A DNA stretch of 64,000 bases from NCBI GenBank assembly GCA_038373885.1, contig JAWZYV010019574.1, positions 248,001 to 312,000 of the forward strand. The letters are read 5' to 3'. A model generated the notes under the pieces. It was not told where the DNA came from and searched no databases. It saw only the letters and a program-made list of their open reading frames with translations. The position numbers and the translations under genes are program-made. Positions 10,101 through 64,000 of this stretch are shown here, one piece after another. The DNA comes from Cheiracanthium punctorium (taxonomy: Eukaryota > Arthropoda > Arachnida > Araneae > Cheiracanthiidae). How positions within the stretch are numbered: the stretch's first letter is position 1; each line of letters opens with the position of its first letter.

Positions 10101-10713
10101 GCTCTTTAAAAATGTGCGTCAATAATAAACTTTGAAACAGTGGACTGAACCTTTATTTAAGATGACTTTCAACAAAGGAACGTAATTGTTGGTAATAATG
10201 CAAAAATACAGGATATAGCAATAGTCTTTAAGAATGTGTTTCAATAATATACTTTGAAACAGTGGACTAAACCTTTATTCAAAATAACTTTGAACAAAGG
10301 CACGTAATTGTTGGAAATAATGCAAAAATACAGGATATAACAATGCTCTTTAAAAATGTGTGTTAATAACATACGTTAAAACAGAGGACTAAACATTTAT
10401 TAAAAAAGACTTTCAACAAAGGTACGTTAATTGTTGGAAATAATGCAGAAATACACGGTATAACAATGCTCTTTAACAAAGTTTGTCAATAATATACTTT
10501 GAAACAGTGGATTACACCTTTATTTAAATGACTTTCAACAAAGGGGCGTAATTGTTGGAAAGGCAAAAATACACGATATAGCAATGCTCTTTAAAAATGT
10601 GTGTCAATAATATAATTTGAAACAATGCACTAAACATTTTTTAAAAATGACTTTCAACAAAGGGACGTTAATTGTTGGAAATAAGGCAGAAATACACGGT
10701 ATAACAATGCTCT
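7155..10713 (+). repeat. Satellite S2 array, about 29 units of ~122 bp
   Basis: Long tandem array. Unit landmarks: GACTTTCAACAAAGG, ATTGTTGGAAATAA, TATAACAATGCTCTTTAA and GTGTGTCAATAATATA. Units at the left edge (7155-7320) are the most diverged, as expected if unequal exchange homogenises the centre. Composite units recur: the variant with GGAAAGGCAAAA then GAAACAATGCACTAAAC appears near 8148, 8488, 9218 and 10548. Frames inside (for example 8201-8395 minus, 10617-10952 plus) are products of the repeat. Confidence 0.93.
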
Positions 10714-10809
10714 TTAAGGCGTCTTCTCACTTTGAAAATTTAAAAAAATCGAATTTTTTTTTTTTAATTTTGAAAGTATATATCATCAAAAATGTTATAT
10801 CAAAATTTC

Positions 10810-12291: not shown

Positions 12292-12720
12292 GAGAGTGTG
12301 TCAATTATATACTTTGAAACAGTGGACTAAACTTTTATTTAAAATGACTTTCAACGAAGGAACGTAATTCTTGGAAATAAGGCAAAAATACAGGATATAA
12401 CAATGGTCTTCAAGAATGTGTGTCAATAATATACTTTGAAACAGCGGAGTGAAACTTTATTTAAAATGACTTTCAACAAAGAGGCGTTCATTGTTGGAAA
12501 TAATGCAGAAATACACGGTATAACAATGCTGTTTATAATGTGTGTCAATAATGGACATAGAATCAAAGGGTCATTACCGTTAGACTTAAGGCAAAAAGAT
12601 ACGGTATAACTATGCTTTCTAAAAATCCGTCAATAATATATTTCTAAACAATGGGCTAACTTTTTAAAGAATGACATTAAACAAATGGAAGTAATTGTTT
12701 CAAATATTTGTAAAAGTATG
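12292..12720 (+). repeat. Satellite S2, right part of array
   Basis: Three or more units continue the array exactly from the TTAA after M1. The last ones (12540-12720) are strongly diverged, mirroring the left edge of the array. Confidence 0.88.
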
Positions 12721-18099: not shown

Positions 18100-19930
18100 A
18101 CTTCCTTGTACGGAGTATAAGGAAGCAATGTGATCCCGAATAATTTCGGGGGCCAAATTTCGACGAAAAAACCGATTTTGACTACTGCTAAATTTAATTT
18201 TAAGAATTTTTTCGATGCATCTCATCGTAAGCTAGCATGCAGGATCATATAAATGCGTCTGCAACCCATTTTGACCAACGGTGAGTCTACTTTGACGAGT
18301 TTTTCTATGCCATCTGTACGTACGTATGCATGTAACTCGCATATCCCAAAAACTATTGGTCGTAGAATGATGAAATTTTGTATTTAAGATTGTTGTAATA
18401 TCTAGTTGTACAGTACACCTCCCCTTTCGGTCCCATTCAACTGTATAGTTTATCTACAGGGCCGCCCAAAAGATTTTAAACACATTACGCTCTATGGGCA
18501 GATATTAATTAAAGCGCATTTTAGAGGTATTACGCTACTTCAAACGACTCAGAAGTGATATATGCTTTTAAGGGTTACAAAATGAATTTCTCCATCGAAA
18601 AAAGTGTCTTTATCATTTATAGTTCTGCTACAGGAACACTCGAAAGATTTCCAATACATTATACGGTCAATGGCAATTTTAAGGACTTTTTGATCCATTT
18701 CAAGCACGATACCGTCCAACCATATAGTTAGGTAATGGTCCGACCGCGGTCACGTGCCTCCCTCAAGAAATACACCAAAACTCGCCAAGCTTGGCGACTT
18801 TAGTGTACATGTGTATGTATTTAACTCTCAAAAACTATTAGTCGTAGAATGTTGAAATTTCATTTATATGATTGTAGTAACATCTGGTTTTGCATCTCGT
18901 TTTTGGTTCCAATCTACTGGAGAGTTTATTTACAGGACCACCCAAAAGAATTTCAGTACATTTAATGTCGATGGACATCTTCACTATATTACATCTGTAG
19001 ACAGTCATTGTTCGGTCCATGCCTAAAATCTTGCCGTCTGTTGTCGACCATGGCGAGTTTTGCCCAAATATCGCCAAATTGGCGATAGTGAGTCATTTGG
19101 TCCATGCCCAAAATATCGCCATTTGTCATCGTCCTTGGCGAGTTTTGGCGAAACACTGCCAAATTTGGCAATAGTCAGTCATTAAAGGAAATAAAAAACT
19201 TTGTAAAAAACACACATAAGATGTTATAAGTAAGAAGATACGCACGTTTCGACAATTTTTGGTCGAAACGTGCGTATCTTCTTACTTATAACATCTTATG
19301 TGTGTTTTTTACAAAGTTTTTTATTTACTTTATTGTTTAACACCAGTATTTTGAGTGTTTTTTCCGTTGTTTTGTTTAGTCAGTCATTGTTTGGTCCATG
19401 CCTAAAATCTCGCCATTTGTCGGCGAGTTTTTCCGAAATATCGCCAAATTTGGGGACAAAAACTATTACGTATTTTGCATAACTCGAAAAATTTTACCCG
19501 TAGAATTTTGAAATTTTGTATTTAGAACTATTGTAACATCTAACTGTGCATCTCTTTTTTGATTGCAATCCACTGGGTAATTTATTTACAGGGTCTGCCA
19601 AATGACTTAAAATACGTTAAGGCGCATGGATACATTCAATTCATTGAAAGTCTGTGGTCAATGACCACCTTGGCTATCCCCAAAATCTCGGAAACTATCT
19701 CAAGCTTGTCGGCTTTTGGTGAAATATCGGCAAATGAAATGTCAGAAGGAAATCTTTCAAATTGAACCCAGCTTGCCGATATCGGAAATATTTGGGTAGA
19801 ATTCGCTAAACCATACTATATTACTGCAGTATTTTATCTCTTTCAAACAAAATAAGTTTAGATGAAGTGGGCCGAAAATATTTTTGATTTAATAGATGTA
19901 CAAGGAAGTCATGTGTTGTCCACATGAGAT
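18100..19930 (-). mobile_element. Foldback-ended element FBE, copy 1
   Basis: Related to 25820-28008 and 33992-35876 but in the opposite orientation. One end is ACTTCCTTGTACG followed by an AAGGAAG foldback. The other end is ACAAGGAAGTCATGTG with a GTGT...ACAC-type hairpin. It is flanked by TTTTT on both sides (18095-18099 and 19931-19935) in an S1 unit. The interior holds several GGCGATATTTCGCC-type palindromes and a 193-bp hairpin insert (19184-19376). No transposase is visible; superfamily undetermined. Confidence 0.75.
19184..19376. mobile_element. 193-bp insert with a 65-bp perfect hairpin and 12-bp TSD
   Basis: The arms 19189-19253 and 19262-19326 are exact reverse complements (65 bp each) around an 8-base loop AATTTTTG. 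A T-rich tail follows to 19376. Both sides carry TAGTCAGTCATT (19172-19183 and 19377-19388), a 12-bp duplication. The FBE copies at 26400-26560 and 34540-34640 lack the insert. Confidence 0.85.
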
Positions 19931-25154: not shown

Positions 25155-27041
25155 ATAAGGCCTTTAAATATCAGAATTATGTATCAAAAATACTTCTCAA
25201 TTGACAAAATAAAACAATATATTCAAAGCATAATATGATACTATGATACTCAAAAAAAAAAAAAATTTTTATGTTTGATGGTAATTTTTCATGCCGTTCT
25301 GTACCATCAGAATTGTAATAATGTTTTAAATTGTACATGACATAATAGTATTTTGACATACATATCTGTATATCATAAGAAAAATAAACACATTCAATTA
25401 AAAAAATTATACTTGCACAAAATGCCAATGAAAAAATACTTTAAGGAAATTGTATATCAATCTGTACAATACAATCAACGAACATCAATCTAAGTACAAT
25501 TAAAAAAAGATCTCAGAAAAAGGTTTAAGTGTTATTGGACAGTCACATATTTATTTATTTATTTTAAATTTTCAAGTTAGAGATAATACTAAATGAATAA
25601 TTTTATTTTATTATTTTATGTCTGTGAAATTATTTACTTTAGAAGTCATCATTTATTAAGTGTTTTGTTTTAACTTTAAAAAACAAAGATATATTAACAG
25701 ACAGCAAAAATTCCTAATACACATGTGATAGCTGCTGGTCCAGCCAGACAGTACACAGAAACAAACAGACATCCAAGTAAGTGCAGCCGTCACAAACTTA
25801 GGAAGCAAACATACAACAAAATCTGATGTGTCCAACACATGACTTCCTTGCACGTCTATTAATTCAAAAATGTTTTATACGCACTTCCTCTAAACTTATT
25901 TGTTTGAAAGAGATAAAGTATCAATAATAGTAAGGTATAGCGATTTCTAGCCAAATATTTCGATATCGCCAAGCTGAGTTCAATTTGAAAGATTTCCTTC
26001 TGACACTTTATTTGGCGATATTTCACCAAAAGCCGACAAACTTGAGATAGTTTGCGAGATTTTGGGGATAGCCAAAGTAGTCATTGACCACTGACTTTCA
26101 ATGAATTGAATGCATCCATACACCTTAATGTATTTAAAGTCATTTGGCTCACCCTATAAATAAATTCCCAGTCGATTGCTGTCAAAAAAGATATTGAAAA
26201 CAGTTAGATATTATAATATAGTTCTAAATACAAAAGTTCAAAATTGTACGGGTTAAAGTTTTAGAGTTATACAAAATACGAAATAATTTTTGGCGCCAAA
26301 TTTGGCGATATTTCGGCGAAACTCGTCAATGTCGACGACATTTGGCGAGATTTTAAGCATGGACCAACAATGACAGATTATCGCCAAATTTGGCGATATT
26401 TCGCCAAAACTCGCCAAGAACGATGACAAATGGCGATACTTTGGGCATGGACCAAATGACTGACTATCGCCAAATTTGGCAATATTTCGCCAAAACTCGC
26501 CAAGGTCGAGGACAGACGGCGAGTTTTTGGGCATGTACCAAACAATGACTGTCTACAGTTGTATTATATTGAAGATGTCCATAGACATTAAAGTACTAAA
26601 ATTCTTTTCGGTGGTCCTGTAAATAAACTCTCCAGTAGATTGGAACCAAAAATCGAGATACACAACTAGATGTTACAACATTCTTATATATGAAATTTCA
26701 TAATAGTTTTTGAGATTTGAGAGTTAAATATGCACACACGTACACCAAAAGTCGCCAAGCTTGGCGACTTTTGGCATAGTTCTTGAGGGAGGCACGTGAC
26801 CGTGGTCGGACCATTACCTAACTTATGTGGTAGGACGATATTGTGCTTGAAATGGATGAATGCCCCTAAAATTGCCATTGACCGTAATGTATTGGAAATC
26901 TTTTGAGTGTTCCTGTAGCAGAACTACAAATGATAAAGACACTTTTTTTAATGCAGAAATTCATTTTCCAACTCTTTACAGCATACATCACTTCTGAGTC
27001 GTTTGAAATAGCCCAATACCTCTAAAAAACGCTTTGATGAA

Positions 27042-27730
27042 TTTCGGCCCATAGAGCGTAATGTATTTCGAATCTTTTGGGCGGTTCTGTAGATAAACTA
27101 TCCAGTCGAATGGAATCGAAAGGGGAGGTGCACAACTAAATGTTACAACTATCCAAAATATGAAGTTTCGACATTCTACGCTTAATAGCTTTTGAGTTAG
27201 GCGAGTTTAATGAATTTCGGCCCATAGAGCGTAATGTATTTCGAATGTTTTGGGCAGTCCTGTAGATAAACTATCCAGTCGAATGGAACCAAAAGGAGAG
27301 GTGCACAACTAGATGTTACAACTATCCAAATTATGAAGTTTCGACATTCTACGCCTAATAGCTTTTGAGTTAGGCGAGTTTAATGAGTTTCGGCCCATTG
27401 AGCGTAATGTATTTCGAATGTTTTGGGCAGTCCTGTAGATAAACTATCCAGTCGAATGGAACCAAAAGGAGAGGTGCACAACTAGATGTTACAACTATCC
27501 AAAATATGAAGTTTCGACATTCTACGCCTAATAGCTTTTGAGTTAGGCGAGTTTAATGAATTTCGGCCCATAGAGCGTAATGTAATTCGAATCTTTTGGG
27601 CGGTCCTGTACATAAACTATCCATTCGATTGCCACCAAAAGGGGAGGTGCACAACTAGATCATAGAACAATCCTAAATATCAAATCTCAACATTCTACGA
27701 CCAATAGTTTTTGAGATATGCGAGTTACAT
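27042..27730 (+). repeat. 173-bp tandem repeat, about four units
   Basis: TTTCGGCCCATAGAGCGTAA recurs at about 27042, 27215, 27388 (with a T/G change) and 27561, an exact 173-bp period. FBE copy 3 has about three units (35135-35640). Unit number therefore varies between copies. Confidence 0.9.
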
Positions 27731-33991: not shown

Positions 33992-35876
33992 AATCTGATG
34001 TGTCCAACACATGACTTCCTTGCACGTCTATTAAATCAAAAATGTTTTTTACGCACTTCCTCTAAACTTATTTGTTTGAAAGATATAAAATATCAATAAT
34101 AGTAAGATATAGCGATTTATAGCCAAACATTTCGATATCGCCAAGCTGAGTTCAATTTGAAAGATTTCTTTCTGACACTTTATTTGGCGATATTTCACCA
34201 AAAGCCGACAAACTTGAAATAGTTTGCGAGATTTTGGGGATAGCCAAAGTAGTCATTGACCACAGACTTTCAATGAATTGAATGCATCCATAAACCTTAA
34301 TGTATTTAAAGTCATTTGGCTCACCCTGTAAATAAATTCCCAGTCGATTGCTGTCAAAAAAGATATTGAAAACCGTTAGATATTATAATATAGTTCTAAA
34401 TACAAAAGTTAAAAATTCTACGGGTTAAAGTTTTAGAGTTATACAAAATACAAAATAATTTTTGGCGCCAAATTTGGCGATATTTCGGCGAAACTCGTCA
34501 ATGTCGACGACATTTGGCGAGATATTAAGCATTGACCAACAATGACATATTATCGCCAAATTTGGCGACATTTCGGCAAAACTCGCCAAGGTCGAGGACA
34601 GACGGCGAGATTTTGGGCATGTACCAAACAATGACTGTCTACAATTGTATTATATTGAAGATGTCTATAGACATTAAAGTACTGAAATTCTTTTCGGTGG
34701 TCCTGTAAATAAACTCTCCAGTAGATTTTAACCAAAAATCGAGATGCACAACTAGATGTTACAACAATCTTATATATGAAATTTCATAATAGTTTTTGAG
34801 ATTTGAGAGTTAAATATGCACACACATACACAAAAAAGTCGCCAAGCTTGGCGACTTTTGGCATCGTTCTTGAGGGAGGCACGTGACCGTGGTCGGATCA
34901 TTACCTAACTGATGTGGTAGGACGGTATTGTGCTTGAAATGGATGAATCTCCTAAAATTGCCATTGACCGTAATGTATTGGAAATCTTTTGAGTGTTCCT
35001 GTAGCAGAACTGTAAATGATAAAGACACTTTTTTTAATGGAGAAATTCATTTTCTAACTCTTTACAGCATATATCACTTCTGAGTCGTTTGAAATAGCCC
35101 AATACCTCTAAAAAACGCTTTGATGAATTTCGGCCCATAGAGCGTAATGTATTTCGAATTTTTAGGCGGTTCTGTAGATAAACTATCCAGTCGAATGGAA
35201 CCGAAAGGGGAGGTGCACAACTAGATGTTACAACAATCCTAAATATAAAGTTTCGACATTCTATGCCTAATAGTTTTTGAGATATGCGAGTTTAATGAAT
35301 TCCGGCCCATAGAGCGTAATGTATTTCGAATGTTTTGGGCGGTCCTGTAGATAAACTATCCAATCAAATGGAACCAAAAGGGGAGGTGCACAACTAGATG
35401 TTACAACTATCCAAAATATGAAGTTTCGACATTCTACGCCTAATAGTTTTTGAGATATGCGAGTTTAATGAATTCCGGCCCATAGAGCGTAATGTATTTC
35501 AAATCTTTTGGGCGGTCCTGTACATAAACTATTCATTCGATTGCGACCAAAAGGGGAGGTGCACAACTAGATCATAGAGCAATCCTAAATATCAAATCTC
35601 AACATTCTACGACCCATAGTTTTTGAGATATGCGAGTTACATACATACGTACGTACGTACAGACGGCATGGAAAAACTGACCACAATAAACTCGCCGCTG
35701 GTCAAAATGAGTTGCAGACGCGTTAATATGATCGTGCATGCTAGCCTACGATGAGATGCATCGAAAGAATTCTTAAAATTAAATTTAGAGGTAGTCAAAA
35801 TCGGATTTTTTGTCGAAATTTGGCCCCCAAAATTTTTCGGGATCACATTACTTCCTTATACTACGTACAAGGAAGT
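33992..35876 (+). mobile_element. Foldback-ended element FBE, copy 3
   Basis: Same ends as copy 2 (AATCTGATGTGTCC ... TACAAGGAAGT), flanked by A5 on both sides (33987-33991, 35877-35881). It has three 173-bp units instead of four, fewer GGCGATATTTCGCC repeats (34465-34600) and only a short ACGT microsatellite. It splits the Penelope-like remnant. Confidence 0.8.
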
Positions 35877-48619: not shown

Positions 48620-51169
48620 TTTATTAATTTTTTAAAATATTCGATGCTTTATTCTTTTAAAAAAGGCTGCAAAGTCGCTATAAATCATAAATTGCTTACT
48701 TCAACTTCAGATGCAATTATATTATGCATGCAATTTCATTTTCTGTTCAGCAGAAATTTTAACAGGCAACAAAAGTACATTTGTTTTAAGTGAACAAACA
48801 CAGAAATAATTTACTATCCTTTTTAAATTGAGTGTGTTTCTTGTTGGTATGTTATCTTGTGTAAGCCTTCTTTTGAATATTTCACCCAACATTTTGCCCC
48901 ACAACACTGCACTATGTCAAGCGAAGCTAACTAAACGCCCCCGAAAAAATACTGCCAAGCAGAATGAAAAGGCGGCTTCTTATTGTATGGAAGATAATAG
49001 AGATAGGAGCACGCGAAATTCTTCAAATCAACGTGAGGGAGGGAGGGGTAGCGATGTTATACTAGGAAGCAGCATCTGCTTTCATCCCCTTCCCCACAGA
49101 CAGCGCCATCTCTAAATAGTCTTTTCGAAGTCCAGTTTCGAGCTTGGTTCAATGGACCAAAAATACCTGAGACCGAGGAATATATGAAGGAAGTTGGTTG
49201 AGTTTTCTCTCGAGGTCAGGGAGCTACAGAATGAATAAAATGTCAGCGGTATACTTTCAGTGACGTCAAAGAAAAATTCCCGAGTACGAGTTAATGAAAT
49301 AGGCAGTCAGCCAACTTTTTACTGAACTCTTTTGCTGCCTGGGATTATTTCTTAGAGAGAGATGCATAAATACTTAAAGCAGCTTTAATCTTCTATTCAT
49401 TTTCTAACACTATTCATTATTCACATGTATCACTAGTTATTTTACTGTACAGCATGTGTCTGAGATATCAGATAGGGGTCCCTTCACAATAACAACAAAG
49501 AGGGAAAAAATAGTTTATGTACACACACAATAAATTAAATAAATAAATGAAAAGAAAGCTCAATGTTTGAGTTATTAATAAAATGTTGGAGACTATTATA
49601 AGTACTTTTTTTACTAACTAGCTGAAGTACCTGTTTTTTGCAGAAAGCAGTTATTTTTTAAGTTGAAGTTCATTCAATCAGAGCAGATTTTTCAGTAAAA
49701 AGAATCTTGAATAATCTAATATCAGAAGGTGCTTTCTCGGCCCCCTTTTTTAACATGTAAAAAGCAATTATCTGGCAGCAAAACAATTTTTATTTGTATT
49801 AGTGAAAACTACACTCAATACATTTCAGCTTAGCCAGGATTGAATGGCATTTAATGTCTGTTGGCTTTTACAGGCATTTACTAAGTTTTTACACTCTTTG
49901 GAAAAACAAGTTTTTTTTTCAGGTTTTTTACAATCTTTGAAAAAACTTATTAGTTTGACTGTTTTTGTCCCTTTTTTGAAAATTTATCCACCAATTTTCC
50001 ACTTTCCAACATGTGGGCGTTTTGCAGCTACATCTAATTCTACTATTTTCACATAACAATATTTACCTAATTTAGTTTCTAATTAGGTAAATAAAAGAAT
50101 ACTATGTGAAATTAATGGCTTTTAATCCTTTAATGTGTATTAGGATATTATTATACAAAATTTTAGCATAATCATTATTGTTCGCAAACACAATTAATCC
50201 CAGGCAGCAAGAGTCCCCGGGAAAAGTTGGCCCAAATATCCATTTTATTGGTTCGTACTCGTCAGTTTATTCTGGCAACCCTATAACGTTGCAGAGAATC
50301 ACACTTTCTGAGTATGTGACTCACTATTCCCTCCGAACATTGGTAAAAAGTTCTAGTCATGTTAGACAAAGAGTACTCGGTAGAATATACTCAGCTGCTG
50401 TTTTTGGAGCTCTTGAGTCATGGTCAAAAAATAGAAATCAGCATTCCAACCCCCCCCCCATGTCGAATCGGGGTATGTGACACGCGTACATGGTTTGCCA
50501 TCCATCCAATCAAAAACTCTGTTGATTGTCCCCCTTTTTTTCCCCCCTGAAGGAAATCTGCTTTTTTCTGAAGACTTACTCCTTTCTCCATGTAAAGTAC
50601 AACTGTTTTGTTGTTCAGTTGGATTTCCAAAAGTTCAATAGATTACATCATCAGACACACAAAAATAAGTTTGCATTTGAAGTCAAGCTATTTCTGTGTT
50701 TGATTACTAAAGCAAATATATTGTTGTTACTTGTTGAAATTTATGCTAAACAGTAGGTAAAATTATAAGCATGACTGGATCTAATGTCGAAGTGGTAAAT
50801 TCATAACTCGTGGCTTTGCAATGCTGTTTAAAAAAGCGAGGTGGAGCATTGGATGTTTTAAAAATTAATGCAATATTCAGAGTTTATTTATGTATTTTGA
50901 GAGTGTATTTCTTTTATAGTACTGACATTAAAAATATGATAGTAGAAATGAACTTTTTTAAGTATTTCTTTCTTTAAATAATTTCAAAAACACCAAAATA
51001 TAAATCTATAATTAGTAAAAATATTTCCTCATGGAAAATTATATTTCTTTGTATGACATTATATGTAAGTTTTACTAAATTTAATTACAGAATTGTTGAC
51101 ATAAACTAGAATAGTTTAAACTTATCCAATAACAGTTTTTCCTACCAAATATACAAAATCTTAATCTTA
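48620..51169. other. Probable HACL1 intron, no gene seen
   Basis: AT-rich with a C-run at 50450-50459 and T-runs. 49010-49343 is GC-richer and may be the right end of the CCCAGGCAGCAA element. Reading frames (for example 48828-49115, 50178-50480) have no family resemblance. Confidence 0.4.
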
Positions 51170-52287
51170 TCTTAATATATATATAAAATGCTAATGTTCG
51201 TTTGTAAAGACAGGGTTTTCTCTATCACCACCTACTCGAATTAACTTCCCGTTGGGGTGGTAAATACCCCTTGGTCTCACGGTGAAAGTAAGGGAGTTTG
51301 GTGGAAGTGGGTGGCGAAAATGTGAAAAAAAATATATATCTGTTCTTTTCTAACTCATGAGAACTTCTGAAAAGTTCTAAAAATTCCTGGAATGACCTAG
51401 AAAATTCCAAAATGTGTGCAACTGTTACAGTCAATCTAGAATGTTCTAAAAATTTCCAGAAAGTTCCAAAACATGTGCAACCATTCAAATCGATTTAGAA
51501 TGTGTCTAGAACGTTCTAAAAATTTCTGGAATGATCTAGAAAGTTCCAAAATGTCTGCAACTGTTAAAATCGATCCAGAATGATATAGAAAGTTCTAAAA
51601 ATTTCTGGAATGATCTAGAAAGTTCCAAAATGTCTGCAACCGTTAAAACAATCCAGAATGTTCTAAAAAGTTCGAAAAATTTCTTGAATGATCTAGAAAG
51701 ATTCAAACTGTCTGCAACTGCTAAAATCGGTATGGAATGTTCTAGAAAGTTCTAAAAATTTCTGGAATGATCTAGAAAGTTCCAAATTGTGTGCAACTGT
51801 TAAAATCGATATGGGATATTCCAGAAAGTTCTAGAAATGTCTGGTCGAGTGAAGATCAATTGCGATTGGTGATTGTCATTCGGAAATTTTATAGCATACT
51901 GCTTCGCAGCCTCTCGATTATTCCGATGAAATTCTCCGTAAAGTAACACCATTTCAGTGTATTCATTAGTATTAAACATTATCTTTCGTTTTTTACACTC
52001 AATAAGCTACGAATTCAAATAGCATGAACTTTAGACAAACACTAACAAAGTAACTTAAACAACAGTTTTTCAACTCCAATAAAATATTAAAATTTAATGT
52101 TTATCGTCTGTTGCCATATCAGCAGGAATACTTTCTATACATCGCATGTTTAATGGTCGAATAAGTCTCTCAATATCTAAAGATAGAAATCTAAATTATA
52201 TACGTTAAAAATGGATCCTTAAATATCTTTTATACCATTAAACATGTGGTGTATTTTAACCCGAGCAACGCCGGGTTTCGCTGCTAG
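51170..52287 (+). mobile_element. Helitron module A1
   Basis: Starts TCTTAATATATATATAAAAT after an A and ends ACGCCGGGTTTCGCTGCTAG. Just before the end, CCGAGCAACGCCGGG can fold as a hairpin; then CTAG (52284-52287) and T. It contains the ~79-bp repeat array 51360-51850. No coding sequence. The next module begins at the very next base. Confidence 0.85.
51360..51850 (+). repeat. ~79-bp tandem array with heat-shock-element-like motifs
   Basis: About six units with GTTCTAAAAATTTCTGGAAT, GATCTAGAAAGTTCC and GTCTGCAACTGTTAAAATCG. Each unit has inverted GAA/TTC blocks two bases apart (TTCtgGAA, GAAagTTC) and some TTCTAGAA, the form of heat-shock factor sites. Whether any factor binds is unknown. 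Confidence 0.8.
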
Positions 52288-52909
52288 TCTTAATATATAT
52301 ATATAAAATGCTAATGTTCGTTTGTAAAGACAGGGTTTTCTCTATCACCACCTACTCGAATTTACTTTCCGTTGGGATGGTAAATACACACCTCTTGGTC
52401 TCACGGTGAAAGTAAGGCAGTTTGGTCGCGGTGAGTGGAAGTGGGTGGCGAAAATGTGAAAAAATGTATATCTGTCCTTTTCTAACTCAGAAGAATTTCT
52501 GAATTTCAACTCCAATAAAATATTAAAATTTAATGTTTATCGTCTGTTGCCATATCAGCAAGAAAACTGAATTTCAAGCAATTATCGTCTGCGAACCATT
52601 TTACCTGAAACAAATTCAAGTTATTTTGACAAGTGAAAAAGAACAAATTATTTGAATAATCTAGAGCAGTGATTCCCAAAGTGGTCCAGGTGGACCCCTA
52701 GGGGTACACGGGATACAAGACAGGGGTCTACGTTGGGGTGAAAAAAAATGGGATTCATTCACATTTTTTGAAAAGATTTGGGAATATGGTAGAAATGTAG
52801 CAGCAGGGGTCCACCGAAACCAGTAAAATTTCGTAAGTGGTCTACGAGGGAAAAAAATTTGGGAACCTCTGATCTAGAGTGTTCTGGTACTAGCAATTTC
52901 GATGTGTTA
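52288..52909 (+). mobile_element. Helitron module A2
   Basis: Begins TCTTAATATATATATATAAA directly after A1's CTAG. It shares the first ~250 bp with A1, A3 and A4 (CTAATGTTCGTTTGTAAAGA, CGTTGGGATGG). Without the MITE at 52667-52871 it is about 409 bp. It has no CTAG end of its own before module B1 starts. Confidence 0.75.
52667..52871. mobile_element. 205-bp hAT MITE with exact TSD
   Basis: Ends CAGTGATTCCCAAAGTGG and CAGAGGTTCCCAAATT (reverse complement). Exact duplication ATCTAGAG at 52659-52666 and 52872-52879. Modules A3 and A4 lack it (AATATTCTAGAGTGTTCTGG at about 63950 is the empty site). Confidence 0.92.
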
Positions 52910-55900
52910 TCTATATATATATAAATGACTGTTTGTGGGTATGTGTGTGGGTGTGTATGACGTTGAAAAACTCCAAAAGCGTTTGACCGATCACCATGAA
53001 ATTTGGTACCCTTAAGTCTTTTGTCACGCAGAAGGTTTTTATGCTATCCATTTTACTAAGGTGACCAAACATCCCCATTTTCTGGGGACAGTCTCCATTT
53101 TCAGGACGTTTTTCAAATTGTCCCCAGAATGTAAAAATGGAACTGGGGACAATTTTTAATTATTGCATTGTTTTTCAATTAAATTACTGTTAATTGTAAC
53201 CATTAATACCATTAATTATAAATGTCCCCAGTTTTGCTGTCAGAAATGGGGACGTGTCCCCGATTCTGACTACAAAAATCTGGTCACCTTAATTTACCCT
53301 AGCTCGCTGCTATGGGTGCTGCAGAACGTCGAATTCTATTCAACCGCTTCCTATGGAAATACCGTTTAACTTATCTCGATGAAAATTGGTACGCATAGAT
53401 ATTTGAACACGGAGAATACTTTTACGCAATCCATTTTGATATAACTTGGCGCTAGGTGGCCCTGCAGAGTGTCGAATTCTATTCCATTGGACTGCTTGCT
53501 ATGAAAATACCACTCAACCAATTTTAATGAAAATTGCTATTTAGGGATATTTGAACACGGAGAAGGTTTTTATGCTATCCATTTTCCTCTAGCTTGCCGT
53601 TAGGTGGCACTGCAGAACGTCGAATTCTATTCTGTTCGACCGCTTGCTCTGCAAGTACCGTTCAACCGGTTTTGATGAAATTGGTAGACACGGATATTTG
53701 AAGACGTAGAATATTTTTACTTTATCCATTTTGCTGTAACTTGATGCTAGATGGCGCTGCAGAACGCTGATTTCTATTCCATTCCACCGTTTGCTATGAA
53801 AATACCGTTCAACTGATTTTTATGAAAATTGGTACGTATTTGAACACGGAGAATATTTTTACACTATCCATTTTGTCATGACTTGCCGCTAGATGGCGCT
53901 GTAGTACATTGAATTTAGTTCCGTTCGACCGCTCGCTATGGAAGTACCGCTCGACTGTTTTTGATGGAAATTGGTACTCACGGATATTTGAAGACGTAGA
54001 ATATTTTTACCAAATCCCTTTGCTATCCCTTTTGCTATAACTTGCCGCTAGATGTCGCTGCAGAACATCGACTTATATTCCGTCAACCCTCTTGCTGTGA
54101 AAATAATGTTCAACCGATTTTGGATAAAATTGGTACGTATGGATCTTTGAACACGGAAAATATTTTTACACTATCTGTTTTGCCATGACTTGCTGCTAGA
54201 TGGCGCTGCAGTACATCGAATTCTATTCCGTTCAAACGCTTTTGATGAAAATTGGTACACACGGATATTTGAAGGAGTAGAATATTTTTACACTATCCAT
54301 TTTTGCTATAACTTGCCGCTAGATAGTGCTGCAGATAGCCGAACGCCGAATTCTATTTCGTTTAAGTGCTTGCTGTGAAAATACCGGTCAACCAATTTTG
54401 ATGACAACTGGTACATATGGATATATGAACATGCAGAATATTTTTACGCTATTCGTTTTGCTATAGCTTGCCGCAAGATGGCGCTGCACCACATCAACTA
54501 CTATACCGTTCAGCCATTCGTTATAAAAATTTTTATGCTTACATATTTGAGCACGGAGAATACATTCTAAGTATGCATTTGGCTGTTATTCACTACTAGA
54601 TGGCACTGCTGCGCATTAATACTTTAACTCGCCATGAGATGCCAATGCAACGATGCCTTGATCTCCATGAAAATTGATATAGCTAGATGCTTGAACACCG
54701 AGAATATTTTCGAGTTATCCATTTTGCTATAAATAGCTACTTCATTGTGCTGTAGCACATCATTACTTTAACTCGCCAATAGATAGCGCTGCAACGTATC
54801 AACTTCTTACTTTAATTCGTCTATTGATGGCGCTGCAGCATATAAAGACTGTTCAACTGATCGCTATGAAAACTGGTATAAATAGATATTCGAACACGGA
54901 GAATATTTTGGCGTTATCCATAACGCCACAACGTTTGCTATACCTTGCCACTAGATGTAACTTCAAACCAATGACTTCACGACCGTTCAACTGACGACCA
55001 TGAAAATTAGTAAACATAGATGTTTGAACGAAAAGAATATTTTCGTCTCATCCGTTTAGCTATAACTCGCCGTCTGTACATTCAATCATTCAATCTGGTA
55101 CACACAGATATTTGAGCACGGAGAATACTTTTATGCTATCTATTTTGCTATGACTTGCCTCTAGATGCCGACAGCACACCAACTTCAAAGTAGCACACCA
55201 AGCACACCAACTTCAAAGGTGGTAGCACACCAACTTCAAAGCCGTTCACCCAATCACCTTAAAAATTGGTATACATACACATTTGAGCAGAGAGAATATT
55301 TTTTTAGTATTCATTTGGCATTACTCACCACTTGATGGCACTGCAGCCATGGCCTGATTTAAGGGAGGGCATTCGGGGCAAGCGCCCGGGCCCCCAAATT
55401 ATTTTTTAAGATTAAAAATTTGTAAATTTTGAAAAAGCTTTCAAAAGAGGGTCCCCTAATGAAGCTTTTGCCCAGGGCTCTCAACTCGGCAAATCTGCTC
55501 CTGACTGCAGCACTTTATTATTTTAACTCGCCACTAGATAGCACTTCAGCAATCAACTGCTTGATCGTTCAACTAACCGCTCTCAAAATTGGTATACATA
55601 CACATTTGAACACGGAGAATATTTTCGCGTTATGCTTAACTCTCTTTGCTTAACTCGCCCTTTGATGGCGCAGTAGTGTATTCACCACTAGATGGCACTG
55701 CAGCGTATTTCGACCGTTAAGGTGTTTGCTATGAAATTGGTACACACAGATATTTGATAATGAAAATATTTAGATGCTATTCATTTTGCAAAAAATGCAT
55801 CGCCATGAAATTCTTTAATTGACTTGCATAATTGTTGAACACAGATAATATTTGTGCACTATCAATTTTGCTATATCTATTTATTATGATAAATAGTAAT

Positions 55901-55970
55901 TACATTAAACCGTAATAAAAAAAAAAAAGAATCCATTCATTCCCGTGCGAAGAACGGGGCATACAGCTAG
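52910..55970 (+). mobile_element. Helitron module B1 with CTCF-like satellite
   Basis: Starts TCTATATATATATAAATGAC after TTA. Ends CCCGTGCGAAGAACGGGGCA and TACAGCTAG (CTAG 55967-55970), where CCCGT/ACGGG forms the terminal hairpin. Between them lie about 17-20 tandem units of ~148 bp. Unit landmarks: TTGAACACGGAGAATATTTT, CCATTTTGCTATAACTTGCC, GCTAGATGGCGCTGCAG, GAATTCTATTCCGTTC and ACCGATTTTGATGAAAATTG. The array decays towards the right. Confidence 0.82.
55348..55503. mobile_element. 156-bp hAT MITE in module B1
   Basis: Ends CATGGCCTGATTT and CAGGAGCAGATTT (reverse complement), with a CCCGGGCCCCC run inside. 8-bp duplication ACTGCAGC exact at 55340-55347 and 55504-55511, inside a 148-bp unit. 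Confidence 0.88.
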
Positions 55971-56357
55971 TATATATATAAAATGCTAATGTTCGTTTGT
56001 AAAGACAGGGTTTTCTCTATCACCACCTACTCCAATTAACTTCCCGTTGGGGTGGTAAATACCCCTTGGTCTCACAGTGAAAGTAAGGGAGTTTGGTCGC
56101 GGTGGGTGGAAGTGGGTGGTGAAAATATGAAAAAATATATATCTGTCCTTTTCTAACTCATAAGAACTTCTGAATTTCAACTCCAATAAAATATTAAAAT
56201 TTAATGTTTATCGTCTGCTGCCAAATCAGCAGGAAAACTGAATCTCGAGCAATTATCGTCTGCGAACCATTTTACCTGAAACAAATTCAAGTTATTTTGA
56301 CAAGTGAAAAAGAACAAATTATTTGAATATTCTGGTACTAGCAATTTCGATGTGTTA
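55971..56357 (+). mobile_element. Helitron module A3
   Basis: 387 bp, follows B1 directly: TATATATATAAAATGCTAAT, then the A sequence, ending CTAGCAATTTCGATGTGTTA before B2. Confidence 0.8.
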
Positions 56358-58079
56358 TCTATATATATATAAATGAATGTTTGTGGGTGTGTATGTGAGT
56401 ATGTATGACGTTGAAAAATTCCAAAACCGTTTGACTGATCACCATAAAATTTGGTACACTTAAGTCTTGCCGCTAGATGGCACTGCAGAACGTCGATTTC
56501 CATTCCGTTCGAACGCTTGCTATGAAAAGACCATTCAACCGATTTCGATGAAAATTGGTACACATGGATATTTGAAGACGTAGAATATTTTTACACTATC
56601 CATTTTGCTGTAACTTGTTGCTAGATGGCATTGCGCAACGTCGATTTCTATTCCATTCGACCGCTTGCTATGAAAATACCATTCAACCGATTTTGCTGTA
56701 ACTTGCCGCTAGATGATGCTGCAGAACGTCGAATTCTATTTCGTTTAAGCGCTTGCTGTGAAAATGCCGGTCAACCGATTTTGATCACAATTGATACACA
56801 TGGATATATGAACATGGAGAATACTTTTATGTTATCTGTTTGACTATAACTTTCCACAAGATGGCGCTGCAGCACATGACCTTCTATACCGCTCGAGCAA
56901 TCAACATAAAAATTTTTATACTTACACATTTGAGCGAGCAGAATACATTCTAACTATTCATTTAGCTGTTACTCACTACAAGATGGCACATTATTACTTA
57001 ACATGCCATTAGATGGCAATGCAGCGCACCAACTTCTTCACCGGACAATTGACCGCTATGAAAATTGATATACATAGATACTTGAACATGGAGAATATTT
57101 TCGTGCTATCCATTTTGCTATAAATAGCTACTTCATTGTGCTGTAGCACATCATTACCTTAACTCGCCAATAGATGGCGCAGAAGCATATAAAGACTGTT
57201 CAATTGATCCCTATCGAAACTGGTATAGATAGATATTTGAACACTGAGAATATTTTGGCGTTATCCATTTTGCTATAACTTGCCACTAGATGTCACTTCA
57301 AACCTATAACTTCAAGACCGTTCAACTGATCACCATGGAAATTCGTAAACATACACAGGGATGTTAACTCCAACACTCGATTTTAGAGCACCCCGGGAGC
57401 AGAAAAGATTTCATTTGGGAGCACCTCGGGAGCAGAAAAATTCCATTTGGGAGCACCTCGGGAGCACAAAAAAATAGTTTCCGAGAGGAAAACTAAGATT
57501 CGAGATCAGAATTAACATGATTTTGGAGCATAAAATTGAAGATTTAGGAACACAATAAATGCATACAAGAAAAGCAAAGTTTGCAAGCAAACACCATTTG
57601 CTAAAAGCAAAACACTATTTGAAAGCACTTTAGGAAAGCTCTGGAAAAAAAAGGGTGTATACAGGCTATGCTATCAGCAACTTGGTAAAAACAATACATG
57701 GATTTATATGGACGGAAGGAATTTTTTTGTGTGTGTGTGTGAAACTGCTCTTTTTAATGGTTTTCATATAAATGCTTAATGGAAAGAGAGTGGGAGGGAA
57801 GTATTTCTTATATGCAATGGTACTTTTAATGCATGTTCGAAGGTTGTAAAAATACTAATACTTAAATAGTAGAATTAACATTTCTGCCGTTTATATCATT
57901 CCAGAATTATGTATTCAAAATTTAGTCTATTTTAAAATAAAGAATTTAAATACGGATCTATAAATGAAATTCGTAACACATTCTGAAAAATTTGCAGACG
58001 CACATTGGCTGAACACAGGCCCAGGGCGTCGTCCCGTCTGCCCCCTCTCGTAGAGCCTGCACACACACAAAAAGAAAAT

Positions 58080-58229
58080 CAGTGGTGTAGTTTTAAGAAA
58101 AAAGGTTTAGGAACGCTCGCAACTGAAGACTCAAAAATGCTGAGGTCAGCCCGTGCCTTGAATGAATCGTGCTGCAAAAGCCTGGGCCCGCACAGATCTC
58201 TACCCCCCCCCCACGCGACTACACCACTG
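58080..58229. mobile_element. 150-bp MITE
   Basis: Ends CAGTGGTGTAGTTTTAAG and CCAGTGGTGTAGTCGCG (reverse complement), C-run near the right end. No convincing target duplication. Confidence 0.55.
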
Positions 58230-58418
58230 GCAGCGGATTTCCGGATTATTTTGAAATGAAATATTCTATTAATTCAGACAGCCTAGATTCTGATTTCTAA
58301 ACCGGTCATGCTTCCAATTTTCACTCTTGCTACGGGCCGGGTCATAAACAGTGATTTTTTAGGGGCTGGGACGTCACCGTAATATACTGTTTTCTTTACG
58401 GACCGGTCTGGTTTAGAT

Positions 58419-59985
58419 CAGGGGCGGCCCTGCGGTACATGACACCCACTCCACCCTGCAAACGTAGAAAAAGACGTCCCTTTTACTTTTTTCAAAATTT
58501 CTTTTATGATTTTAAGTTGGAAATCGTGCCCCTTCATAAACAAAAAACGGTGCCCGTTGCGATGATTACCGTAATTTATGGAAGAAACGCCACGGCATTT
58601 ATGAGTTTAAAAGTTCAAAAATAGTAAGTGCGGCGTTTACAATATTTTTAATTTTTTTTAGCCGGTCTTCAACGAAAAATCGAAAAATTCGTTTAGTGAT
58701 AATTTTCTCAAAAGATGGCGCCACCACCAACACGTACTCTTTAGCGTGCACAGATCACAGCGTAGCGAATCAGAATGCGAACCTACCCCCATAGAAAAGA
58801 GGTTTAATCTTTGATTCAGTTTTGGAGAAAGTCAGAGCGCCCTGAGATGGGTCCATGTCCGGTGCTCTGAAGTGGATGGCTTCATACATCCAACCGATGT
58901 CTCCTCAATTAAGTAAAAAGAAAAAAAAAATAGAAGTAAATCTTTTACATCTACATTTTAGAACTATAATTAAATTTTAATGAAGTTTTGAATTTTATAT
59001 TTTGAAGGGTTAAAGTTCTGTAAAATACCGCAAAAGTGCACTACCCTCTATTAAATGCACCCGTTTTTCACATGAACCTCTATTGTTCTTAAAATACTGA
59101 ATTTCAGCGAAAATTAGTCTATGTTGCGCCCGGTGCGAGTTTAATCCTTCCTCCACCCACCCACCCCCCAAAAAATAAATAAAGTTAATCTAAAAGTTAT
59201 TTTTTTTATCGCCGTGCGGCTTTGCGCCCTGTCCAGGAAAACTCTATCGAATAAACACTGCCAACTAATTGGTATGCTCAAGAAATGCTGAGTGCTTTTA
59301 AAATAAATCCCAATGTTATAAATATAAAAAATAATAAATAAATAGAACGATCAGGTGTTGTTACACAACATTCAGTTTAAAACGACAATTTGCTGAAGCA
59401 AGCTCATTACGTAATCAACAGCTGGCCATCCGCAGGGGGAAAATGTTTACTTTTAACTGGAGCCTCTTCTCACACATCGATTGCTGTTTTCATTTTGATG
59501 GCGCCTGGTAGTCTGTCCGAACTTTGTGCGGATGCAAGACGGTTTTTAGAACTTATTTTTTTATTTCTATAAATTCCCCTTTGTGAATATGAACAGTGAT
59601 ATCTGATTATTTGAAAATAGAAATCGTAAGCTTCGTAAAATAGCGGTAAATACTTTAACATACATTAAAAACTTCTATGGGAAGGGGGAGAAAAAAGGAG
59701 ATTTTTTTTTTTACCGTTTATCCAATTTCTCTCGAAATATATCCGATCAACTTAATAGCTTTTCTAATAAATTAGATCTAATAAGTAATGCAACATATTT
59801 TTTATTTATTTATTTTTGTTAATTAAGAAATTGTTTTAGAAATTGAATTTATCTGGCATTGACTTCTTCTGACCACGATCACCCCCCCCTCCTCCCCCAC
59901 CAACGATCGTGGCTGCGGCGTTTATGCCGGGTGCGGCGTTTCTTCCATAAATTACGGTACTTGTTTGCCTATCTGGCCGTCCCTG
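58419..59985. mobile_element. hAT-like element, CAGGG(G/A)CGGCC ends
   Basis: Left CAGGGGCGGCC, right (reverse complement) CAGGGACGGCCAGATAGG. Internal inverted segments TACCGTAATTTATGGAAGAA at about 58569 and 59939. Flanking octamers agree at 5 of 8 bases only. No transposase visible. Confidence 0.55.
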
Positions 59986-60582
59986 ATTGAGGTGACTAAC
60001 AAAGCCCGGCTGGTCCGATCCGGGGTGGGTAGAATGGCTTCGGAATGCAGCTTTTGTACGCAGTTTGAATCTTGCTTTACTGCTAACTAGCTTTTCATAC
60101 ACGCTTTAAAAGATAAATGAGCGTGGCAAAAATTTAACAAAGAGTCAAAATGACGTATTCGGCGCAGACCGGCACAAAAATCGGCTAAAAGCGCAGTTCG
60201 GCGCAAGATTTGTGTTTCGGCGCAGCTCGGCGCAGAATTAACATCCCTGCATACATGTTTGAACGAAAAGGATACTTTCTCGGCATCCGTTTAGCTATAA
60301 CTCGCCTTCTGTACCGTTCAACCGTTTGCTATGAAAATACCGTTCAATTGATTTATGAAAATTGGTATATACAGATTATTGGTATATACAGATATTTGAG
60401 CACGGAGAATACTCTTACGCGATCTATTTTGCTATGACTTACCTCTAGACACCGATGCAGCGCACCAACTTAAAAGCCGTTAGACCGATCATCTTAAAAA
60501 TTGGTATACATACACATTTGAACAGAGAGAATATTTTTTTAGTATTCATTTGGCTGTACCCACAACTTGATGGCACTGCAGC

Positions 60583-60739
60583 CAGGAGCTGATTTCCGGG
60601 AAGGCATTCGGGGCAAGCACCCGGGCCCCCCAAATTCTTCTTTAAGTTTCAAAATTTGTAAATTTTGAAAAAAAATTCGAAAGAGGGTCCCCTAATGAAG
60701 TTTTTGCCCATGGCCCTCAACTCGGCAAATCTGCCCTTG
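60583..60739. mobile_element. hAT MITE in module B2, same site as in B1
   Basis: Ends CAGGAGCTGATTT and CAAGGGCAGATTT. Flanks ACTGCAGC and TGTGCAGC, with two mismatches. Same position within the repeat unit and same neighbouring units as the copy at 55348-55503. Confidence 0.8.
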
Positions 60740-61247
60740 TGTGCAGCACTTTATTATTTTAACTCGCTACTAGAAAGCACTTCAGCAATCAACTTCTTGA
60801 TCTTTCAACTAACCGCTCTGAAAATTGGTATACATACACATTTGAACACGGAAAATATTTTCACGTTATCCATTTTTCTTAACTCGCCCTTTGATGGCGC
60901 TTTAGCGTATTATTTCTTTTAATTTGCCACTAGATGGTGATATAGCATATCTTGGCCGTTAAACTGTTTCTATGAAAATCGGTACACATAGATATTTGAA
61001 CATGAAAATATTTTGATGCTACCCATTTTGCAAAAACTTCGACAGTTGATGGCGCTGAGCCATATCATCTTCTTCACCGTTCAAACAATCGCCATGAAAT
61101 TCTTTATGCATAATAATTGAACACAGATAATATTTATGCGATATAAATTTTGCAATATCTATTTATTATGATAAATAGTAATTACAAGAAACCGTCATAT
61201 AAAAAGAATCCACTCATTTCAGTGTGAAGAACGGGGCATTCAGCTAG

Positions 61248-62529
61248 TCTTCTTATAAATAAAAATGAAATTCTGTTTGTTTGTTTGTTTGTTAGTGGAT
61301 TTGATTCGTATACAAATCCACAAAAATGGACCTATCGGCCTGAAATTTAGTACAGATATGTAAAATAATATAGAATAACTCACAGTCCACTTTAAAACTT
61401 TGAAAGTCCACCCGTTCCCGGAATTTAAGAGATTTTTTATGCTCTTCACGCAAAAATCGTTCCGTAATTGTAACCCCTGTAGTGAAAAAAGTGTGAAATA
61501 AGGATCGTGGTTGCCATGTGTGGCGATTTTGCCGAATAAAATGTCGTTCGTATACAAATCCACAAAAATGGACCTATCGGCCTGAAATTTAGCACAGATA
61601 TGTAAAATAATATAGAATAAATCGTAGTCCACTTTAAAACTTTGAAAGTCCACCCGTTCCCGGAATTTAAGAGATTTTTTATGCTCTTCACGCAAAAATC
61701 TTTCCGTAATTCTAACCCCTGTAGTGAAAAAAGTGTGAAATAAGGATCGTGGCTGCCATGTGTGGCGATTTTGCCGAATAAAATGTTTTAAATTTTCAAA
61801 GTAAAAATAAAAGAATAATAATGATTTTTTTTTTTTGTTAGTTTATATTCGTAAGGTTATTTTTTTTAAAATTATAATATCGTGTGCATGGGAAATCAGA
61901 GCAGGAATGTAATGCTTTACACGCAAAACAATAAGAATTGAAGATTTCCGAGGCTAATAGGTAAATTATTTTAGTTTGGCGAAAAAATAAAATGGCTCAA
62001 ATGCCGATTTTGTGAAAGTGAGTTCTAGCGGTTTGCACAGATTTCGGCTTGGCACAATTTATTGAGAGCTTAAGGAAATAGATTTTTGAAAACAAGTGCA
62101 AAGGTTTTATTAGAATACAGCGTTAAATTTTAATGACCCGTGAAGAAATAAAGCAGTTATTAAGGGATTTCAATTGATCTATCTCCAGAATTCTCGCCAA
62201 ATGAGTACATTGATTTAAGTTGGGGGAATTCCGCCAAATTTCAGAAAATTGAAATCTTCTCATTTAGTACATCGGAGTAATGATGAATAAAACACGTTAT
62301 AGTTGATAATTTAAAAAAATTCGGCTGTATTAAGGGATTCAACTTTTCAAATAAAGGCTTGCTTTACTTTTTCGCGGTCGAACCATTTCCCATATATTAT
62401 TGCTGCTAAGTCAATGCTTCGAATGATTTCCTGAAAAAACGCTTGCAAAATGGCGTATGTTGGCACTTTGGCGAGGCTTAGATTTGAAACTGGATTTTAT
62501 TTGAGACTGGGATATATAATGACACTGGT
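61248..62529 (+). mobile_element. Helitron module C
   Basis: Starts TCTTCTTATAAATAAAAATG with GTTTGTTTGTTTGTTTGTTA right after B2's CTAG. Contains a ~243-bp direct repeat (from about 61305 and 61548; landmarks CACAAAAATGGACCTATCGG and CCACCCGTTCCCGGAATTTA). It runs without a CTAG end into B3. Confidence 0.65.
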
Positions 62530-63586
62530 TATAGATAAAAATGAATGTTGGTATGAGTGTATGAGGTTGAAAAACTCCAGCACCGTTGCACCATGAAATT
62601 TGGTTCACCTAAGTCTTTTATCATGGAGAAGCTTTTTATGCTATCCGTTTTCCTCTAACTTGCCACCAGGTGGCGCAGCAGAACGTCGAATTCTATTCCG
62701 TTTAGCCATTTGCTATGCGAATATCGTCCAACCGATTTCGATGAAATTTGGTACACGCGAATATTAGAACACGGAGAATATTTTTCACTATCCATTTTGC
62801 TGTAACTTGCCGCTAAATGGCGCTGAAAAGCATCAACTTCTATACCGTTCGACCGATCGGCATAAAATTTTTTATACTTACACATTTGAGCACGAAGAAT
62901 ATATTCTAACTGCATTCCTTTTGATGTTACTCACCACTAGATGACACTGCAATGCATTATTATTTTAACTCGGCACTAGATGACGCTGCAGCAGGCCAAA
63001 TTCTTGACCATTCAAACGGTCGCTATGAAAATCAGTATACATAGCTATTTGAACAATGAGAATATTTTGGCGTTATCCATTTTGCTATAACTCGCCACTT
63101 GACGGCGCTGTAGCAAATCATTACTTTATTGAACCACTAGATGGCCCTGCAGTGTATCACTTCTTGACTGTGCAAATGATCGCTATGAAAAGAGGTATAC
63201 ATAGATATTTGAACACGGGGAAGAGTTTGGTGCTATCGATTTTCCTATAACTTGCCACTAGATGTCGCGTCAACACATGAACTTCAGGACTGTCCAGCCG
63301 ATAGTCATGAAAATTCGTATACATCGTTATCTGAATGCGAAAAATATTTTCGCCGTATCCGTTTTGCTAAAACTCGCCACTAGATTGCGCTACGCCGCAT
63401 GGCCTTCTGCACCGTACAAACGATTGCCTTGCAATTCGGTATGCATGATTATTGGACACAATACGACGATGGACAAAGCGATATCCACTTTGCTATATCT
63501 GTTTATTATAATGAATAGTAATCACCACAAATCGTAATATCAAAAAGTCCATTCATTCCCGTGCGAAGAACGGTTACTTCAGCTAG
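62530..63586 (+). mobile_element. Helitron module B3
   Basis: Decayed start TATAGATAAAAATGAATGTT. Ends TCCCGTGCGAAGAACGGTTA then CAGCTAG (CTAG 63583-63586). About six ~148-bp units, including GCCGCTAAATGGCGCTG and CCACTAGATGGCCCTGCAG. Confidence 0.75.
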
Positions 63587-63988
63587 TATATACATAAAAT
63601 GCTAATGTTCGTTTGTAAAGACAGGGTTTTCTCTATCACCACCTACCCGAATTAACTTTCCGTTGGGGTGGTAAATACCCCTTGGCCTCACGGTGAAAAT
63701 AAGGGAGTTTGGTCGTGGTGGGGGAAGTGCGTGGTTGTGGGTGGCGAAAATGTGAAAAAATATGTATTGGTCCTCTTCTAACTCACGAGAACTTCTGAAT
63801 TTCAACTCCAATAAAATATTAAAATTTAATGTTTATCGTCTGTTGCCATATCGGAAGGAAAACTGAATCTCAATTATCGTCTGCGATCCATTTTACCTGA
63901 AACAAATTCAAGTCATTTTGACAAGTGAAAAAGAACAAATTATTTGAATATTCTAGAGTGTTCTGGTACTAGCAATTTTGATGTGTTA
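63587..63988 (+). mobile_element. Helitron module A4
   Basis: TATATACATAAAATGCTAAT follows B3's CTAG. About 402 bp of A sequence ends CTAGCAATTTTGATGTGTTA, and a new B start (CTATATATATAT) begins at 63989, so the chain runs past the window edge. Confidence 0.8.
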
Positions 63989-64000
63989 CTATATATATAT

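Follow-up and report, generated by a model that had tools for sequence, protein, structure and literature searches.

The distal part of the DNA analysed here, a 64,000-nucleotide window covering bases 248001-312000 of contig C14432 (JAWZYV010019574.1) in the 2.53-Gb, 15171-contig assembly of the spider Cheiracanthium punctorium, is occupied by a chain of Helitrons that probably arose as these elements inserted into one another's 5' ends. From position 51170 onwards, five mobile units follow in one orientation, all on the forward strand, in the order A1, A2·B1, A3·B2, C·B' and A4·B4 (a dot marks parts fused within one unit, a slash a junction and a caret an insertion point), and reading of the sequence reveals no host DNA between them. 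A first-pass annotation of the window had already recognised this head-to-tail chain and its lack of intervening host sequence. It had also counted nine modules (A-A-B-A-B-C-B-A-B), where there are five mobile units and the A-B join is no module boundary, and had let the chain stop at 64000, whereas it is about 15.5 kb long and ends in host DNA some 2.6 kb beyond the window.

Directly before the first element lies a short ladder, TCTTAA-TCTTA (51159-51169, forward strand), which from its letters may be read as the left stubs of interrupted 5' ends. Unit 1, A1 (51170-52287), is a 1.1-kb non-autonomous Helitron running from TC to a hairpin and CTAG, with relatives at loci L029 and L016. An exact join at 52287/52288 (CTAG/TCTTAATATATATATATAAAATGC) leads to unit 2, the composite A2·B1 (52288-55970), of a long-B type with relatives at L021 and L026. 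Its left A piece, delimited by sequence comparison (52288-52909), contains a small element of 205 bp (52667-52871, strand unassigned), bounded by an 8-bp duplication, ATCTAGAG, at 52659-52666 and 52872-52879, which from its ends we take to be hAT-like; among the A copies compared with A2, none matched the part that carries this insert. B1 (52910-55970) holds a degenerate tandem repeat of about 148 bp and ends in CCCGTGCGAAGAACGGGGCATACAGCTAG. Beyond the exact join at 55970/55971 (CTAG/TATATATATAAAATGC) comes unit 3, the short-B composite A3·B2 (55971-61247), whose 5' end is devoid of TCTTAA and whose B2 part harbours a 2.9-kb element with inverted termini, CAGGGATGTTAA...TTAACATCCCTG (57356-60249, strand likewise unassigned), flanked by CATACA at 57350-57355 and 60250-60255. 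Both this and the 205-bp element are later inserts inside chain units. Unit 4, the composite Helitron C·B' (61248-63586), follows exactly at 61247/61248 (CTAG/TCTTCTTATAAATAAA), and the same composite occurs at L009, L037 and L049; within its C part, 61305-61786 is a 242-bp tandem duplication with 97% identity. Unit 5, A4·B4 (63587-64000 in the window), starts at the exact join 63586/63587 (CTAG/TATATACATAAAATGC) and extends to contig position 314633, equivalent to window position 66633, where its 3' end, ...GGGGCATACAGCTAG/TATAATAATATT, passes as CTAG/T into host DNA. The A-B join, which had been described as alike in three places, is exact at two of them, 52909/52910 and 56357/56358, reading GATGTGTTA/TCTATATATA (in unit 3 the fusion point GATGTGTTA/TCTATATA is identical to that of unit 2); in the third, at 63988/63989, the letters after GATGTGTTA are CTATATATA, with one T fewer.

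That the units are Helitron-like, as first proposed from the window, agrees with their TC 5' termini (TCTTAATATA for A, TCTATATATA for B, TCTTCTTATA for C and TCTCTACTTA for a family D met below), with CTRR 3' termini (CTAG in 8 of 10 solitary A·B copies, CTAA at L015 and a decayed ATAG at L020) and with insertion at A^T that duplicates no target bases, seen in the flanks of the solitary A·B copies and at the empty site GTGTTA^TGG of a longer element, A-long. Helentrons insert between T and T and have no CTAG end, unlike these units with their A and T flanks and CTAG ends. The further claim that every module closes with a hairpin and CTAG holds in part, since stems are found at the ends of A1 (-6.2 kcal/mol) and B1 (-5.0 kcal/mol) but are mostly lost at B2 (-1.7 kcal/mol) and B' (-2.8 kcal/mol); none of the 3' hairpins lies far from shuffled sequences (z -1.6 to +0.4). 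The A-B join, on the other hand, does not look like a module end at all: no stable hairpin forms there (folds of -0.5 and -0.2 kcal/mol), the CTAG of TACTAGCAATTTCGATGTGTTA stops 16 nt ahead of the join, and A-long is continuous across it. Scans of the window for Rfam families, tRNAs and open reading frames yielded nothing relevant, with no frame above 200 amino acids. Elsewhere in the genome, Helitron_like_N domains (PF14214) lie above the curated cut-off at no fewer than 150 places, several of them in open frames of more than 1500 amino acids, and to judge from these Rep-helicase copies autonomous Helitrons look recent.

A and B together form one mobile Helitron. A 181-base query across the A-B join returned 1686 candidates, of which 40 were scored (84-100% identity) and 20 of these fetched for inspection. 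Host DNA flanks the composite on both sides at 10 of the 20, the rest adjoining another Helitron or having a damaged end, and in all ten solitary copies an A precedes the TC terminus and a T follows the 3' terminus. Single insertions with these flanks are what the first-pass annotation had named as the sign that the joined unit moves as one, and on this point it proved right. Exact A-B junctions number 69 genome-wide, over many contigs (control 0). Five copies align in one piece to that of L010, with 92.4-95.5% identity over 2.45 kb, and the remaining ones in pieces; measured against the majority sequence of 14 copies, the A part is 0.3-3.9% away and the sampled B parts 1.3-5.8%.

The composition of A·B can be understood by comparison with A-long, an element of about 2.25 kb with the 3' end ACCCGAGCAACGCCGGGTTTCGCTGCTAG that has its first ~400 bp in common with A. 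In A-long, GTGTTA is followed by TGGTATATAAACC, but in A·B by TCTATATA, the 5' end of B, which indicates that B entered A-long at A^T. The uninterrupted site is seen at L013, L018, L019, L021 and L023 (four distinct fetched copies, as L018 and L019 are apparently the same locus), and 145 exact copies of it are found genome-wide. A·B contains the left piece of A and the whole of B without the right piece of A, as expected if copying begins at the outer 5' end and halts at the first terminator. Stretches fetched for further A-long 5' ends were of little yield: 19 short ones (L051-L069) gave one A 5' end (L057) and one C 5' end (L051), and L050, upstream of the first C6909 junction, had no A 5' end, the element there being A1 as seen at L071. 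Other elements carry serial A 5' ends at intervals of 165-190 bp, three at most (L009, L013, L021, L023, L030, L043 and L047); in these the first ~161 bp of A are followed by a further A, a C or some different Helitron, most often through the join GGCGAA/TCTTAA. Both A·B, which lies at dispersed sites, and the double-A type (A161-A) carry outer 5' ends before a complete inner element, as self-insertion chimeras do.

Junctions of the kind seen in the window were searched for genome-wide with an exact pattern of CTAG, up to 14 bases and the A 5' core. There are 213 of them and none with a reversed control pattern, so the chain structure is neither a product of chance nor peculiar to the window. 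Set against 962 A 5' cores, they amount to a share of about 22%, reckoned on A 5' ends alone, with a core pattern that is two bases longer than that of the junctions and includes some inner ends of multi-ended elements. Among 100 listed junctions, counted by eye, 89 read CTAG/(TA)4-8AAATGC, 79 of them with (TA)5. The usual intact A 5' end being TCTTAA(TA)5AAATGC, these 89 start 6 nt inside it, with TCTTAA missing; 4 have the full end, CTAG/TCTTAATA, and the remaining 7 comprise three with TCTATATA and four other variants. Upstream 3' ends, grouped by eye at 20 junction loci chosen from the (TA)5 class and hence sharing the same base by selection, are 7 A-type, 4 B-type, 2 C·B', 2 ending in CGGGCACGCAGCTAG, 2 of the GTGCGGAGAACGGG type and 3 single others. 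Elements other than A-type thus stand upstream at 13 of the 20, in at least six kinds, and many families meeting one base inside A are the signature of an insertion site.

We therefore read the chain, with good confidence, as a nest: Helitrons inserted one after another into the 5' ends of those already in place, and some of these insertions yielded fused hybrids that spread. The entry point of a newcomer would be an A^T, either the one six bases into a resident A (TCTTAA^TATATATA) or one within the TCTTA ladder that precedes it. The first five or six bases of the resident would then remain as a stub at the far left, the CTAG of the newcomer would abut the rest of the resident, and repeated entry would produce a head-to-tail chain without host DNA, for which we infer a corresponding order of insertions in the window. 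When insertion is deeper, transposition from the outer 5' end to the first 3' terminator would move the outer left piece together with the whole inner element. On this reading A·B is such a fusion (B in A-long at GTGTTA^TGG), the A161-A multi-5'-end elements are as well, and C·B' may be one too; a RepHel encoded elsewhere in the genome would presumably drive the process. More tentatively, and with somewhat more doubt than belief, the A 5' end can be regarded as a true landing pad to which the machinery directs many families, always at one dinucleotide six bases inside, perhaps with a transposase bound to the resident 5' terminus guiding insertion; plain sequence preference is another possible basis of site choice. 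A true landing pad would mean that Helitrons build polar stacks at their own starts and generate hybrids there, about one fifth of A 5' ends being occupied.

An entry at TCTTAA^TATATA must leave TCTTAA on the left of the newcomer. Stub and remainder are both visible at L031 (host-ATCTTAA/TCTTAATATA...CTAG/TATATATATAAAATGC), and TCTTAA directly precedes the leftmost chain element with one 5' end in 6 of 6 cases (L029, L031, L035, L037, L051 and L057, the 3' junctions of L051 and L057 being inferred from the fetch position) versus 1 of 10 solitary A·B copies (p 0.0009), with classes set by eye. Pooling one- and two-ended leftmost elements gives 8 of 10 versus 1 of 10 (p 0.005). Moreover, a TCTTA stub stands on the left of both exact-TC joins onto A whose left side can be seen, A1/A2 in the window and the one at L071, as predicted by a hit in the TCTTA ladder. 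Ladders of TCTTA and TCTTAA before A and C 5' ends vary from 0 to about 4 units at many loci, including 51159-51169. Insertion at A^T into A cannot create a 5-nt unit, which by its sequence would fit a C-type end, TCTTA^TAAATAAA; slippage is another possible source.

Several observations weigh against the nest. The stub comparison mixes families, setting A1, A-long and C against A·B, and the leftmost two-5'-end elements whose outer end is visible are split between TCTTAA (L013, whose first element is A161 plus another family, and L043) and TCTTA (L023 and L047). A fixed regular-expression test gave 8 of 13 versus 2 of 8 (p 0.18), with a pattern that overlooked variant 3' ends and also counted elements from the interior of chains. 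Stubs are also too few, with one for three junctions at L029, one for two at L013, and one TCTTAA fewer in the window than the proposed nesting order needs; a rule equating stub number with junction number failed at all three, and duplication, movement in blocks or the loss of repeat units may account for part of the joins. L016 shows an odd join, CTAGA/ATATATA. As for the fusion, B in A-long with the right piece of A kept was not found, in a search by exact pattern that could miss mutated copies, and the two exact occurrences of CTAG/TGGTATATAAACC both follow family D rather than B. These two D·A-right sites (L074-L081; G000:C5506 and G000:C10140) have left flanks of host DNA without evident likeness, A-right persists in them to within ~20 bases of the expected A-long 3' end, and the compared stretches, taken from the ends of D and of A-right, are ~97% identical. 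D·A-right is a fusion in which D's own terminator was passed, not a preserved nest, and so the terminator does not always win. Its join and the entry of B into A share one A^T.

The first-pass annotation had explained the chain by concatemers from rolling-circle copying that failed to terminate, which is also the published reading of bat and silkworm arrays. Such concatemers would indeed give head-to-tail joins without host DNA, the A1/A2 join is CTAG/TC, and four A1 copies stand head to tail with a single stub at L029. They should, however, join CTAG to their own TC, whereas the listed junctions mostly lack TCTTAA and rarely have the full end; the upstream element is mostly not A-type, and the copies in the window are nearer to copies outside than to one another. 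Termination failure is thus quite improbable for this chain. Multiplication of an A+B block in place, by unequal exchange or segmental duplication, also offered at first, fares still worse and is very unlikely in spite of the threefold recurrence of A·B in the window and the equal 1075-bp spacing at L029, since B1 is of the long and B2 of the short type, the exact A-B junctions are scattered over many contigs, and each window copy has closer relatives elsewhere: 96.4% for A2 (95.3/93.1% to its window mates), 97.9% for A3 (95.3/93.9%) and 95.1% for A4 (93.9/93.1%). A tree of A pieces, with few well-supported forks, likewise leaves the three window copies ungrouped, each nearer to other contigs. 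Unequal exchange or unterminated copying is nonetheless a good reading for some other arrays, such as L029 (G000:C5952:308700-314700), where the four A1 copies are spaced by 1066-1075 bp, three compared units are 96.2-98.7% alike and an exon-like stretch lies nearby; it probably represents one insertion followed by recent tandem duplication.

A different possibility, unlikely but the one among these rivals to be taken most seriously, is that a few ancient joins were copied as larger mobile blocks passing internal terminators, without repeated hits at a hot spot. Terminator bypass does occur, as shown by D·A-right, whose two host sites differ in their left flanks, and the shortage of stubs in multi-unit chains would be accounted for; yet at least seven kinds of upstream 3' ends at the identical base would demand several independent joins anyway. 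Finally, a repeat-rich assembly of this many contigs, with one locus seemingly present twice as L018/L019, might suggest an artefact, which we consider hardly credible given that the 213 junctions mostly share one offset and that the left stub at L031 completes an interrupted end, unlike what mis-joins produce.

Nested insertion has to be seen against what is published on Helitrons. Head-to-tail pairs, tandem arrays, composites and terminator bypass have all been described (PMC2267711, PMC5876387, PMC4778049, PMC5148889, PMC4067079, PMC3789558), and Helitrons in head-to-tail order have been adduced in favour of rolling-circle transposition (PMC5876387). The origin proposed here for A·B, in which copying runs from the outer 5' end as far as the first 3' end, is that put forward for the FoHeli chimeras of Fusarium oxysporum, in which several 5' termini were ascribed to self-insertion, a leftmost 5' nick and a stop at the first 3' end (PMC5148889). 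FoHeli elements are non-canonical, with repeated 5' ends of 31-85 bp, whereas the spider units are canonical CTAG elements, with junctions in the hundreds, from many families, at a fixed position 6 nt in, and with an unfused parent site in 145 copies. In the same report, a three-copy tandem in Metarhizium was read as repeated 5'-end insertion or rolling-circle copying. A published CTAG/TC pair of two unlike Helitrons was read as consecutive insertions, A^T before the resident being one of two orders; it is a single pair with an exact TC join, and the text available describes neither the offset site nor the ladder that the spider chain has. The bat and silkworm tandem arrays for which terminator bypass was invoked (PMC4067079; for bat also PMC2267711 and PMC5876387) are head-to-tail like the spider chain, which differs in its mostly unlike elements and in 5' ends 6 nt short. 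Work on Helraiser and Helibat indicated that the hairpin terminator can be bypassed and that insertion beside other Helitrons provides new 3' ends (PMC4778049). D·A-right fits that bypass, and A·B is the reverse product, with an outer 5' end and an inner 3' end. For silkworm it was stated that a new Helitron can form from two others and that neighbours may supply a new hairpin (PMC3789558), the consulted part of that work describing no site-level comparison such as exists for A·B.

Tandem and composite Helitrons are therefore known, and what is new is the fixed, shared landing site of the A family, at its sixth base, ~22% occupied; in the open-access literature, as far as it could be consulted, no description was found of Helitron 5' ends being entered at one constant position a few bases in. 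A fixed site filled in roughly a fifth of copies gives a strong lead on how Helitrons choose their targets. Since the 6-nt offset of most junctions points to insertion, older arrays deserve to be re-read for stubs. Moreover, with both outcomes at one site, a stop at the inner terminator in A·B and the passing of one in D·A-right, the rule by which Helitron copying stops becomes testable.

Apart from the chain, the window contains several repeat arrays. Satellite-like repeats of 122 bp form arrays at 7322-10717 and 12296-12552 (~28 copies plus 2), and a like 173-bp unit occurs in two separate arrays, with 4 copies at 27033-27726 and 3 copies at 35119-35638. Each of the latter is preceded by 86-88-bp CGCCAAATTTGGCGA repeats (26294-26549 and 34466-34635) that stop 484 bp before it, and a related CGCCAAATTTGGCGA repeat pair is found at 19014-19183.

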